Source: Microbulbifer agarilyticus
GTDB lineage: Bacteria > Pseudomonadota > Gammaproteobacteria > Pseudomonadales > Cellvibrionaceae
NCBI RefSeq assembly: GCF_001999945.1
Contig: NZ_CP019650.1
Location: 992,001 to 1,056,000, forward strand
Length of the DNA: 64,000 nucleotides
Reading direction: 5' to 3'
In this document: positions 3,033-20,902 of the stretch, one piece after another
Position numbering within the stretch: the first letter of the stretch is position 1
How the letters are laid out: each line of letters begins with the position of its first letter
Notes under the pieces: model-generated
The model's input: only the letters and a program-made list of their open reading frames with translations
What the model was told of the DNA's origin: nothing
Databases searched by the model: none
Translations under genes and position numbers: made by a program

Positions 3033-3563
3033 TCAGCGAATGCCGCCTGTCTTCTGTCGGCAGACTTTCAGAGCCTGCAGGATGTACTTCTCAACACTGC
3101 TGACGGAAATGTTCATTTCCTGAGCAATGTCTGAGTAGGATAGGCCGCGGTTGCGGTGCAGCAGGAATGCCTGGCGGCACTTGAGTGGCAGGCTATCCAT
3201 GGCCTGATGAATAGCTTGCAATTGTTGCCTTGCAGCCAGTACTCGCTCCGGCGACTGGTCAAAGCCGTACTCATCATCGGAGGGGGAAGCGCCCTCGGGG
3301 GGCAATTGCTGGTTTACGTAGTCAATATGCAGCTTGCCGCGGCGCAGCTGGTCCACGGCCAGGTTATTCGCAATCTGGAAGAGGTAGGCCCGGGGGTTTT
3401 CGAGGTCTTTCTCGTCACTGAGCTTCTGCAGCCGCAAGTAGGCGTTCTGGGCAATATCCTCGGCATCTTCGGTGCTTCGCACAATACGCGTGACAAAGCG
3501 CACCAGCGCCTGGCCGTGATCGGCAAAAAGAGATTCCAGAAGTGTCTTCCGGGCTTTGCTCAT
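3033..3563 (-). CDS. FecI-like ECF RNA polymerase sigma factor
   Basis: Extracytoplasmic-function sigma factor that would direct transcription of the receptor operon. From the ATG at 3563 it is 176 residues. Region 2 is at about 8-75 (FVTRIVRSTEDAEDIAQNAY, then PRAYLFQIANNLAVDQLRRG) and region 4 at about 115-170 (LPLKCRQAFLLHRNRGLSY, then a helix-turn-helix with SVSSVEKYI). An upstream ATG at 3617 would add 18 residues that do not look like the family, so the inner start is preferred. The gene heads the sigma, anti-sigma, receptor series. The acidic linker with DDEYGFDQSPE is typical of FecI-type factors. Confidence 0.9.
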   Translation of the reverse strand: MSKARKTLLESLFADHGQALVRFVTRIVRSTEDAEDIAQNAYLRLQKLSDEKDLENPRAYLFQIANNLAVDQLRRGKLHIDYVNQQLPPEGASPSDDEYGFDQSPERVLAARQQLQAIHQAMDSLPLKCRQAFLLHRNRGLSYSDIAQEMNISVSSVEKYILQALKVCRQKTGGIR

Positions 3564-3916
3564 TGGTGGACGGATTCCCCGCGTTGCGCTCGTTATGATT
3601 GTTATAAGGCCAACCATGTCAGTTATAACACAGCTGGATAACGATCGACGAGTGGTCGTTTTGGCAAGATAAAGTGACTGAACTTATCAAAATGTTTCTT
3701 TTTGGTGTGCCCAGCGGCCGGCTCGGTTGTCTTTAGCGGTTGCCGGGGTGACAAATCCAGTGACCGCGGGCGCATGCCTATTCCTGCGCGTCGATGCCGG
3801 TATAATGGTGGACTTCTCAAATTTCAATGCCAGTTCGGCGGGGGCAACCCGGGCCAGCGGGCAGATATAGACTAAAAGGTGGCGCCCATGTCGATAGGGG
3901 CCACGGCGGAGAGCGA
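3564..3916. other. Divergent intergenic region between fecI-like gene and dnaX
   Basis: About 350 bases separating two divergently read genes. A TATAAT at 3801-3806 reads toward dnaX. I looked for an SRP RNA here, because it precedes dnaX in some gammaproteobacteria, and did not find its conserved core. Confidence 0.5.
3801..3806 (+). promoter_or_regulatory. Putative -10 element for dnaX
   Basis: A perfect TATAAT about 110 bases before the dnaX start. No good -35 hexamer lies 16-18 bases upstream, so the assignment is tentative. Confidence 0.35.
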
Positions 3917-18535: not shown

Positions 18536-18841
18536 GTAGTATTTGAGGTGCTTTTTTGTGCGCCGAAAATGGATGACAGCGTTATACCAAAAAAAGTTAG
18601 GTTCTTTGTGTAAGAACCACCATTGCCCCTCGACTATTGGGTAACCGCTCAGGAAATCGCGGTTTATTGGCCAAGTTCACAGTTCTGGAAGCCCGGACAA
18701 CGGGAATTGAACCCGAATTGTGAACCGTTGGTCTGACTTTGAGGGCAACCCGTTCACGGGAAACTATAATCCGGGAGCGGCGGTGTTCGCGCCGCGAGCG
18801 TGAAGAGCCTTAAATTTTGGTATTAGATCAGGAGATCAGTC
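18536..18841. other. Leader region upstream of the RiPP precursor gene
   Basis: 306 bases between hrpA and hvfA. It holds a TATAAT (18765-18770) and a near-perfect inverted pair of TTCACAgTTC near 18676 and GAAtTGTGAA near 18716, which may be a regulator site. GGAGA at 18831-18835 is the ribosome binding site of hvfA. No metal-regulator site was recognised with certainty. Confidence 0.45.
18765..18770 (+). promoter_or_regulatory. Putative -10 element for the hvfA-type operon
   Basis: TATAAT 72 bases before the precursor ATG, in GGGAAACTATAATCC. No consensus -35 at the right spacing, which would fit an activator-dependent or alternative-sigma promoter, but this is a guess. Confidence 0.35.
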
Positions 18842-19171
18842 ATGAACAAGAAGAATCTGCCTCTCGCAGCGGCCGTAGGTGCTGCTTTTATCGCCTCCGC
18901 GACCCTCAGCGTATCCACTGCTGCTAACCCGTTCACCGCGACCGAGCTGACCGCTGGTTATAACCTGAAACTTGCTGACGACCACGGCAAGAAAAAAGAA
19001 GGTAAATGCGGCGAAGGTAAGTGCGGCGAAGAAGGTAAAAAGAAAGAAGGTAAATGCGGCGAAGGGAAGTGCGGCGAAGGTAAAAAGAAAGAAGGTAAGT
19101 GCGGCGAAGGTAAGTGCGGCGAAGGTAAAAAGAAAGAGGGTAAATGTGGTGAAGGTAAGTGTGGCGGGTAA
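18842..19171 (+). CDS. hvfA: HvfA/bufferin-type RiPP metallophore precursor with eight EGKCG motifs
   Basis: 109-residue precursor of a modified peptide. Residues 1-28 are a Sec signal peptide, so the product is periplasmic. Residues 50-109 are four units of KKKEGKCGEGKCG, giving eight EGKCG motifs with Cys at 56, 61, 72, 77, 87, 92, 102 and 107. In the known HvfA family the EGKCG cysteines are converted by the HvfB/HvfC enzymes to oxazolone-thioamide groups that bind copper. The next two genes encode exactly those partners. Role inferred: copper sequestration or defence in the envelope. The repeat is 45 bases long at the DNA level (48 for the first unit, which has one extra Glu codon). RBS GGAGA at 18831. 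Confidence 0.9.
   Translation: MNKKNLPLAAAVGAAFIASATLSVSTAANPFTATELTAGYNLKLADDHGKKKEGKCGEGKCGEEGKKKEGKCGEGKCGEGKKKEGKCGEGKCGEGKKKEGKCGEGKCGG
18989..19168 (+). repeat. Four tandem coding repeats in hvfA
   Basis: About 45-base units coding for KKKEGKCGEGKCG; units two to four start 15 residues apart, the first is one codon longer. Near-identity between units indicates recent expansion, so the number of modified cysteines probably varies between strains. Confidence 0.9.
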
Positions 19172-19200
19172 TTCAATCTGGCACATAAGCTGATAGTCAT

Positions 19201-20082
19201 ATGATGACCAACACGCAACGGCAATACCCGGTCCAAGGCGCAGGCCTTGGACTGCGGCGTTCGATGATGGGCGAAACGCTCAACCCCACCGATGTCGACT
19301 TTCTCGAAGTAGCGCCGGAAAACTGGATTGGGGTAGGGGGCCGTTACGGCCGTTGGTTTCGCGAATTCACCGAGCGTTTTCCGTTCGTCACCCATGGGCT
19401 CTCGTTGTCCATCGGGTCCCCGGCGCCTCTTGATGAGGCGCTGGTGCGCTCTATCAAAGAGTTTATTAAGACACACAATATTCGCTGCTATAGCGAGCAT
19501 TTGAGTTACTGCTCGGATCACGGGCACCTGTACGACTTGCTGCCGATTCCGTTTACCGAAGAAGCGGTGCGCTATGTGGCCGGACGAATACGCCGGGTAC
19601 AGGATATTCTAGAGCAGCGCATCGCCATGGAAAACGTTTCCTATTACGCCGCGCCCGGCCAGGAAATGGACGAACTCGAATTCCTCAATGCGGTACTGCA
19701 GGAAGCCGACTGCGACCTGTTGCTCGACGTCAACAATATTTATGTAAATGCGATTAATCACCGCTACGACCCCGAGCAGTTCCTGCTGGGACTCCCTGCA
19801 GAACGTATTCGCTACGTCCATGTGGCGGGGCACTTTGACGAGGCTGAAGACCTCAAGGTCGATACCCATGGCGCGCCGGTGATCGACCCGGTGTGGGCTC
19901 TGTTACAGAAAGCCTACGCGACCTTCGGCCCCATGCCGACCTTGCTTGAGCGGGATTTTAACATTCCGCCACTGCCGGAGCTGTGTGAGGAAGTCGCCCA
20001 GATTCGCCAGTATCAGTCAGCCGCTGGAGCGCATATACGCAGCGCCGAGCCACCGCTTGCGGAGGTCATCCATGGGCGATAG
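19201..20082 (+). CDS. hvfB: HvfB-like DUF692 multinuclear iron oxidase (MNIO), RiPP cysteine-modifying enzyme
   Basis: 293 residues with a TIM-barrel DUF692 fold. Conserved iron-ligand segments are visible: [52 protein letters not shown] and LLERD. Enzymes of this family use two or three iron ions and oxygen to rebuild peptide cysteines. The precursor gene ends 29 bases upstream and the partner gene overlaps its end, so substrate and partner are clear from context. Two ATG codons in tandem (19201, 19204) could start it; no strong ribosome site is seen, so coupling to hvfA translation is likely. Confidence 0.93.
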
Positions 20083-20902
20083 CAAGGTGGTTGATGACTC
20101 TGTGGCGGAAAAGGATGCCGGTTTTCAATTGATGCAGCGCTATTTTGCGGCACATTTGCGCGCGCCCGCAGAGGTTTCGGCACCAGCGGGCATCGAAGAT
20201 CGCCGTATGGGCATCTATCGGGATTTGATTTATAACAACATCGAATCCTTTGTTTCCGGTGGCTTCCCGGTCCTGCGCAGTATTATTGTTGACGATGTCT
20301 GGCATGCCATGGTGCGGGACTTCGTCCAGCGACATTGCTCCCACAGTCCTTATTTCCTGCAGATCAGTGAAGAGTTTTTGCATTACCTGCAGAATGAACG
20401 CGCGCAGTCGCCCGCCAGTGAGCAGGACCCCGCGTTTATGTTGGAGTTGGCACACTATGAGTGGGTAGAGCTGGCGCTGGATGTGAGTCCTGAAAAATTC
20501 CCCAGCGACGTGAGCGTGGGCGTTTCGTCAGAAGGAATGTTGGATATGGCGCCAGTTGCGTCGCCGCTTGCGTGGAGCCTCAGTTATCACTATCCGGTGC
20601 ATCAAATTGGCCCTGCGTTCCAGCCTGCGGAGCCCGGCGCTGAGCCTACCTGTCTGGTGGTGTATCGCGATCGCGAAGACGATGTGGGGTTTATGGAAGC
20701 AAACCCTGCAACCCTGCATTTACTGCAGCTTGTTGAGCAGGCCCAGAGCGAAACCAGTGAGCAGCAGAGCACTCGCCAACTGTTACTGCAGCTCGCCCAG
20801 GATATGCAGCACCCTGAGCCGGAGCAATTGCTCGGGTTTGGGTTGGAACTGGTACAAAAGCTACATCGGCTTGACATTATTGCCGGCTTCCGCGCGGCCT
20901 AG
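20072..20902 (+). CDS. hvfC: HvfC-like DUF2063 RiPP partner protein
   Basis: 276 residues. The start at 20072 has GGAGG seven bases upstream and overlaps the hvfB stop by 11 bases. The N-terminal DUF2063 domain (about 15-125) has the family's pattern [23 protein letters not shown] followed by [20 protein letters not shown]. The C-terminal part (about 160-270) includes [16 protein letters not shown] and is a RiPP-recognition-like fold in studied relatives. Such proteins bring the precursor to the DUF692 enzyme. The DoxX-type membrane protein that often completes these operons is not next to it. Confidence 0.9.

Follow-up and report, generated by a model that had tools for sequence, protein, structure and literature searches.

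What is a copper-binding peptide for if added copper does not bring it forth? This question is raised by mmrABC, a three-gene cluster in a stretch of 64,000 nucleotides from Microbulbifer agarilyticus (assembly GCF_001999945.1, contig NZ_CP019650.1, positions 992,001 to 1,056,000, forward strand), hereafter called the window. It is the Microbulbifer mmrABC (bulbicupramide) cluster already described in PMC12538549, and the account given there leaves a puzzle: a genus-wide cluster with a copper(I)-binding product, no expression observed whether copper was added or not, and no role. The best explanation, and in our judgement a highly probable one, is that mmrABC is an HvfABC-class cluster under a dispersed regulon of an extracytoplasmic function (ECF) sigma factor and a zinc-associated anti-sigma factor (ZAS), together with msrPQ and doxX. 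Although the cluster is known, this regulation is new: read from the sequences, it is a well-supported and specific prediction within the genus, and it extends a known type of regulon. The genes of the cluster are as follows.

18842..19171, forward strand: mmrA, an mmrA/hvfA-type precursor of a ribosomally synthesized and post-translationally modified peptide, 109 amino acids, eight cysteines (open reading frame list, NF050137)
19201..20082, forward strand: mmrB, an mmrB/hvfB-type MNIO (DUF692) maturase, 293 amino acids (Pfam, NCBIfam, match to a solved structure)
20072..20902, forward strand: mmrC, an mmrC/hvfC-type partner with DUF2063 and a region like a precursor recognition element, 276 amino acids (Pfam, NCBIfam, match to 3dee)

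For mmrC we take the ATG at 20072 as the start, with the stop ending at 20902; the longest open reading frame begins with a TTG at 19946. The MNIO scores 360 bits against Pfam PF05114 (cut-off 25) and 446.2 bits against the NCBIfam HvfB family NF003818 (cut-off 360), and its nearest solved chain by sequence is 3bww_A (E 4.2e-80), from an entry titled DUF692/COG3220, i.e. the MNIO family. The partner protein contains DUF2063 (PF09836) and NGO1945_C (PF22106), each above the Pfam cut-off, and scores 308.5 bits against the HvfC family NF050145 of NCBIfam (cut-off 142); its nearest solved chain is 3dee_A (E 2.8e-9), which is named NGO1945. The precursor begins with MNKKNLPLAAAVGAAFIASATLSVSTAANP, judged by eye to be a Sec-type signal, and continues with a conserved NPFxxxELxxGYNL leader segment and four KKKEGKCGEGKCG cassettes, so that all eight cysteines lie inside EGKCG motifs. 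Four stretches of it match the HvfA-family domain NF050137 of NCBIfam (74.9 bits, cut-off 19.5), and it falls below the narrower HvfA equivalog NF050188 (59.2, cut-off 95).

An earlier note on this DNA, made from the sequence alone, had described a tightly packed and partly overlapping copper-binding cluster of the "HvfABC/bufferin kind", and its interpretation survives in part. The secreted-type precursor of 109 residues with eight EGKCG motifs, the MNIO and the DUF2063 protein are confirmed by the reading frames, Pfam and NCBIfam, and the packing is seen in a 29-base gap between mmrA and mmrB and an 11-base overlap of mmrB with mmrC. The database search that the note had proposed places all three proteins above the cut-offs of the HvfA, HvfB and HvfC family models, so that the precursor belongs to NF050137 rather than to an unrelated repeat family. 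The class is therefore HvfABC (EGKCG, captophorin), and the bufferin half of the label has to be dropped: the BufB model NF050167 gives 271 bits, below its cut-off of 310, and a precursor of the DUF2282 type (Buf1) is likewise rejected, mmrA being without any Pfam family match. The note had also named oxazolone-thioamide groups as the product, a modification that has since been reassigned for the class to 5-thiooxazole (PMC13097082, PMC13419390), and had found more motifs than expected. Eight cysteines are in fact ordinary, as they occur in 12 of 31 complete Microbulbifer-type precursors; the others have six (13 precursors), seven (3), four (2) or ten (1), a range of four to ten beside the five to eight given in PMC12538549.

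The closest relatives of the MNIO are from Microbulbifer agarilyticus itself (97% identity), and the same gene order with similar precursors recurs in relatives across the genus and beyond, which means that the EGKCG array is no chance repeat. The published mmrABC agrees with the window cluster in genus, gene order, KKK-split EGKCG cassettes and the pairing of an MNIO with a DUF2063 protein; it differs in cassette number, the published strain having six cysteines in three cassettes and the window precursor eight in four, and the report mentions no protease gene nearby (PMC12538549). According to the same source, mmrABC was found in all strains studied, MmrA of another Microbulbifer loses four hydrogens per cysteine when expressed in E. 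coli, and bulbicupramide, a reduced 12-mer excised from a single modified cassette, binds copper(I).

The most direct use of such a product would be that of a plain copper-stress chelator, induced by excess copper and buffering periplasmic copper. Besides the binding of copper(I), this is favored by a slight growth benefit at 2 mM copper upon co-expression of mmrABC in E. coli (PMC12538549). However, MmrA, MmrB and MmrC were undetected in the proteome of the published Microbulbifer strain, VAAF005, at 0, 0.1 and 0.2 mM added copper, and the authors, hesitant about a copper-protective role, left the function open (PMC12538549). The inference of the earlier note, a copper chelator produced by this bacterium, is thus not borne out by the published strain. 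We regard the copper-stress reading as possible but doubtful; it is partly compatible with the regulon, as the sigma factor could itself answer to copper.

An alternative entry point is the DNA upstream of mmrA, which contains three candidate promoter elements.

18609..18634, forward strand: P1, ECF-type promoter motif TGTAAGAA-N14-CGAC (own genome G000:C1:1010609-1010634)
18709..18736, forward strand: P2, AlgU/RpoE-like element GAAC-N19-TCTGA, weaker evidence
18765..18770, forward strand: P3, sigma-70-like -10 box TATAAT (TATAAT or TATACT upstream in 44 of 46 genomes)

P1 begins 233 bp ahead of mmrA, and its conserved TGTAAGAA...CGAC was found by aligning the mmrA upstream regions of 31 loci. 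P2, which we call AlgU-like on the presumed AlgU consensus, occurs in 16 of 46 mmrA upstream regions against a shuffle mean of 0.59 and is kept as a weak element only. When the own genome is searched with TGTAANA-N15-CGAC, there are 6 matches, compared with 10 for the reversed control. Three of the six carry the full TGTAAGAA: those before mmrA, before an ECF sigma gene (72 bp upstream, at G000:C1:2051283) and before msrP/msrQ (3587469-3587494). The other three (L111, L112, L115) were set aside, as no recognised gene lies behind them. The 12-position form TGTAASAA-N14-CGAC is found in just these three places (mmrA, sigma, msrP), against five for the reversed control. Since the reversed controls outnumber the matches, the counts alone prove nothing, and the case rests on the position of the motif before orthologous genes.

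The ECF sigma gene lies about 1.04 Mb from mmrABC. Its product is above the cut-offs for Sigma70 r2 and r4_2, TIGR02943 (251.8 against 162.2) and PRK12544 (298.2 against 287), which by family model makes it an ECF sigma factor and a candidate member of the RpoE2/sigma-E (ECF13-like) group. At its stop codon the sigma gene overlaps the next gene, which encodes a 72-amino-acid zinc-finger (ZAS) anti-sigma factor. This protein has the pattern C-x25-H-x3-C-x2-C, in keeping with the C/H-x23-26-H-x3-C-x2-C of such small anti-sigma factors, and exceeds the cut-offs of zf-HC2 and NF052368 (antisigmaE); C4, H30, C34 and C37 match the positions named for MseR of N. meningitidis (PMC2893595). A reading frame with H-x3-C-x2-C stands behind the sigma gene at all 39 loci of the genus. 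A switch of the Caulobacter type was rejected, no match to an NrsF anti-sigma factor being found in the own genome. doxX, which is not adjacent to mmrABC in the window, is present as an unlinked copy with the same promoter motif; its identity follows from the copy in G026, which is above the cut-off for PF07681 and to which the own copy is 88% identical. It is the promoter motif that marks hvf/doxX and the periplasmic methionine sulfoxide reductase as probable sigma targets.

The position of the motif was therefore compared across 48 genomes of the genus. A match is TGTAA-N16..18-CGAC within 330 bp upstream, extended past the aligned start by 60 bases for the sigma gene and by 15 for msrP and doxX. 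The sigma gene was called in 38 of the 48 genomes (39 loci, one genome having two copies), the weakest positive, 2.7e-64, being separated by a clear gap from the limit of 1e-20; msrP is present in 27 genomes, and doxX, noticed through its recurrence behind the motif, in 45. The motif precedes mmrA in 37/37 sigma-positive and 0/9 sigma-negative genomes, msrP in 16/18 and 0/9, unlinked doxX in 35/38 and 1/7, and the sigma gene itself at 38 of 39 loci. Named examples are loci L031 and L032 of M. agarilyticus, which carry P1, and L037 (M. harenosus), L039 (M. halophilus) and L046 (M. litoralis), where mmrA is without it. By comparison, the reversed pattern gives no match in any of the four sets, the minus strand gives two matches, both among the sigma loci, and none in the other sets, and the matches per set from mononucleotide shuffles are 0.1 (mmr), 0.085 (msrP), 0.17 (doxX) and 0.185 (sigma). 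Of the 127 matches, 109 have a spacer of 17 and the remaining 18 a spacer of 18.

Note that the rule was set after mmrA had been viewed, so that the sigma-positive mmrA regions are partly the discovery set, and that doxX was found by means of the motif; the more independent sets are those of the sigma gene, of msrP and of the sigma-negative genomes. G018, where a contig edge leaves no sequence upstream of mmrA, and G013, which has no mmr-type cluster, were left out of the counts. G033 is counted as sigma-negative, although it is a metagenome-assembled genome (MAG) of 80% completeness in which a gap in the assembly could account for the missing gene; mmrA of G033 carries the motif with one mismatch, TGTGA. 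On the HvfB tree, the sigma label and the mmr motif require six changes each, and there may have been several parallel losses. Within the genus, the promoter-sigma link is strong, though with few independent losses. These data also bear on the copper-stress reading, against which it counts that the genes sharing the motif in many genomes are those of methionine sulfoxide repair and doxX; no search aimed at copper exporters was made.

The motif need not belong to the sigma factor: TGTAA-N17-CGAC could instead be bound by some other regulator, one that disappeared along with the sigma gene, the latter being just a further target. The motif does precede the sigma operon as well, as would be expected of any common regulator. 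However, it is a two-part element with a spacing of 17, less often 18, and a -10-like CGAC, and it is close to the Neisseria sigma-E promoter, GTMAGBWTT and CGTCTAAH (PMC2893595), and to the ECF16 promoter, (T/C)GTAAC-N17-CGAA (PMC8315932), which makes the other-regulator reading quite improbable.

Regulons of a similar kind are known from other proteobacteria. H. influenzae RpoE2, with the 67-amino-acid anti-sigma factor HrsE, controls msrAB, and induction of a doxX-COG3767-UPF0276-DUF2063 cluster by hypochlorous acid (HOCl) requires RpoE2 (PMC7907618). UPF0276 is COG3220 (PMC7907618), the family named in the title of 3bww, and we infer from the gene contents that this cluster is the H. influenzae hvf (oxazolin) operon. 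The likeness to Microbulbifer extends to the HvfA, HvfB and HvfC proteins with a DoxX-like partner, HvfX (PMC7907618, PMC13419390), and to an ECF sigma factor, a small ZAS-related anti-sigma factor and a periplasmic methionine sulfoxide reductase in the regulon; in Microbulbifer, however, the genes are dispersed over the chromosome and the reductase is MsrPQ, not MsrAB. Neisseria sigma-E with MseR controls msrAB and the NMB2140-2145 operon, which includes DoxX-like and hypothetical genes (PMC2893595). It shares with Microbulbifer the small ZAS anti-sigma factor (Cys4/His30/Cys34/Cys37), the DoxX-like and methionine sulfoxide reductase genes and a similar promoter, whereas its sigma, anti-sigma and cluster form one operon and its -10 element is CGTC instead of CGAC (PMC2893595). 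Caulobacter sigma-F likewise acts on DUF692/DUF2063 operons and on a gene for YedY (MsrP-like) via GTAACC-N16-CGAA, but with the membrane anti-sigma factor NrsF, bufferin precursors of the DUF2282 type and a metal trigger (PMC3511200). A further analogue is Brucella BcrS, with a GTAAC...CGAA promoter and msrP-type targets (PMC8315932).

A wider sample of 61 genomes from the family was also searched for the sigma factor; 16 have it, 13 of these being outside Microbulbifer. Of the 41 family-level MNIO matches, 30 were covered as loci, and motif counts outside the genus allowed CGAC or CGTC. Seven of the 13 (G077, G088, G084, G101, G054, G089, G085) have hvf genes or doxX within about 10 kb of the sigma and anti-sigma genes. 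In G077, the sigma/anti-sigma pair is divergent from an A-B-C-doxX operon and the motif precedes both; in G088 it precedes a doxX that heads the same row of genes. Beyond 1.5-kb flanks, the remaining six were compared by MNIO coordinates only: the MNIO is on the same contig at about 14 kb (G100), 56 kb (G056) and 59 kb (G083), and on other contigs or without a match in G058, G076 and G059. Judging from these arrangements, Microbulbifer seems to have scattered a gene set that is clustered in some relatives. Among 60 loci outside Microbulbifer from the search for MNIO relatives, 31 have a DoxX match and two an MsrP match. As a separate observation, two Thiotrichaceae MAGs (L097, L104) have msrP and msrQ directly downstream of hvfBC, a physical link between functions that in Microbulbifer have the motif in common.

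Several results weigh against the regulon as proposed or against its suggested trigger. Outside the genus the motif is patchy, which lowers our confidence slightly: it precedes the sigma gene in two of the 13 genomes and hvfA in two of the six sigma-positive genomes with a covered MNIO locus (G077 and G085; not G076, G084 or G089), compared with 1 of 21 sigma-negative ones (G066). Within the genus, one sigma-negative doxX has the motif (G039), and some sigma-positive genes are without it: msrP in G023 and G035, doxX in G003, G004 and G042, and the sigma gene in G037. The sigma absences fall in few lineages, and Fisher values therefore overstate independence; on well-supported branches of the HvfB tree there are only two pairs that count as independent, with mmr concordant in both (sign test p 0.5) and, on average, msrP in 1.8 and doxX in 0.8 of the two. 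Moreover, 44 of 46 genomes, sigma-negative ones among them, have TATAAT or TATACT in the 330 bp that precede mmrA, a count without shuffle control, and such a sigma-70-like box could supply basal mmr expression; together with the AlgU-like element, it tempers any dependence of mmr on the ECF sigma factor alone. As for the relatives, an rpoE2 mutant of H. influenzae showed no added HOCl sensitivity in vitro, and RpoE2 has only a weak effect on its own gene (PMC7907618); peroxide, diamide and singlet oxygen each failed to elicit a response of meningococcal sigma-E (PMC2893595), and Caulobacter sigma-F answers chromium and cadmium, not reactive oxygen species (PMC3511200). Since triggers differ among these related systems, HOCl is a best guess for Microbulbifer, drawn by analogy, with roughly equal chances of being right or wrong.

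Under the proposed regulon, the ECF sigma factor presumably uses the TGTAA-N17-CGAC motif, transcribing the distant mmrABC from P1 and also its own operon, msrPQ and the unlinked doxX, a common, not universal, further gene of HvfABC-type clusters. Oxidation of the anti-sigma factor during envelope oxidant stress would be the likely trigger, reactive chlorine being the first candidate. MmrC would hold the precursor leader while MmrB turns the eight cysteines of the core into copper(I)-binding heterocycles by oxidation, and the modified peptide would reach the periplasm by way of its Sec signal. There, it probably would hold copper(I) that is released or made redox-active by damage, with MsrPQ as a repair system for periplasmic methionine sulfoxide. 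The gene identities, the shared motif, the joint absence of motif and sigma gene and the linkage in some genera are read directly from the genomes, and the chemistry, the copper binding and the HOCl/RpoE2 control of the H. influenzae counterpart are taken from relatives (PMC12538549, PMC7907618). On this basis, we place mmr by inference in a response to envelope oxidation, perhaps by reactive chlorine.

A more specific claim, to which we give an even chance, is that the peptide is an arm of a dispersed envelope-oxidation regulon and not a copper-stress product, quenching copper that oxidised proteins of the periplasm set free, with MsrPQ repairing methionine at the same time, and that lineages which lost the sigma factor also lost the mmrA and msrP element, one of them rebuilding its precursor core. 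The predicted regulation gives a reason why copper by itself may have failed to bring the product to light, and with a sigma factor, an anti-sigma factor, a promoter element and two gene sets predicted to share their control, the published puzzle becomes testable. It further points to a logic that distant proteobacteria may share, in which copper-binding MNIO peptides are wired to periplasmic methionine sulfoxide repair, in one operon or scattered. Class-wide ties of such clusters to oxidative stress and metals are already in print (PMC13097082). By term search, "sigma", "promoter" and "methionine sulfoxide" are absent from the main text of PMC12538549, and among the papers listed by literature searches no title or opening abstract line ties the Microbulbifer cluster to a sigma factor, most subscription journals lying outside that search.

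Finally, the cluster might be silent or vestigial, inherited neutrally beside its neighbours. The gene upstream, whose domains were scanned, is presumably an hrpA-like helicase, and the one downstream is mlaA by domain scan. In a comparison of the window segment 14522-22006, hrpA-like and/or mlaA genes were also found near hvfABC in other Pseudomonadales, e.g. Alcanivorax and Exilibacterium (L066, L068-L070, L074, L078, L090, L093-L096, L098, L100, L102, L103, L105-L108, L110), which suggests that this position is old and vertically kept. Such a position and the lack of detectable MmrA-C protein in the published strain (PMC12538549) would fit a neutral relic. However, PF05114 is present in all 48 genus genomes and 47 of them have an mmr-type MNIO without inner stops (the sole MNIO of G013 is distant, at 33% identity), and the precursor core, the leader segment and, in sigma-positive genomes, the promoter motif are conserved across the genus, so that we give the vestigial reading hardly any credence. 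A plasmid search returned four records, all partial matches and none above 80% of the query, and thus no sign of a mobile cluster.

Some further observations concern the window and the motif. Another ECF sigma gene, FecI-like by eye (about 194 amino acids), lies at 3035-3617 of the window on the reverse strand, and scans with Rfam at the gathering threshold and for tRNAs found tRNA-Ala only. The 12-position motif also precedes a gene for a TVP38-like membrane protein, so named by eye, in G011, G012, G025 and G047 (L238, L239, L247, L266); single matches in other genomes (e.g. L267-L273, L275, L276) were left aside.

Other observations concern precursors. In sigma-negative G036 (L211), an mmrA-type precursor about 440 bp upstream of the MNIO keeps the leader and has two cysteines only, several Met/His-rich EGMQHG-like repeats replacing the cysteine motifs; this is possibly a rebuilt metal-binding core. 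Three sigma-negative genomes have a second or only MNIO of the distant type about 10-13 kb from msrP: G013 (contig C59; MNIO L197, msrP L185), G014 (C77; L199, L188) and G036 (C1; L212, L186). In G013 and G036 it is preceded by a secreted precursor with four cysteines, Buf1 bufferin-like by eye. Of 95 precursors with more than 70 amino acids (duplicates counted), 86 have an NPFxxxELxxGY-like segment, probably the HvfC recognition site, directly after the signal peptide, also outside Microbulbifer. Two precursors (L056, L067) have an EF-hand-like stretch, seen by eye, between their EGKCG blocks; a precursor type with a fused EF-hand has already been described (PMC12452194).

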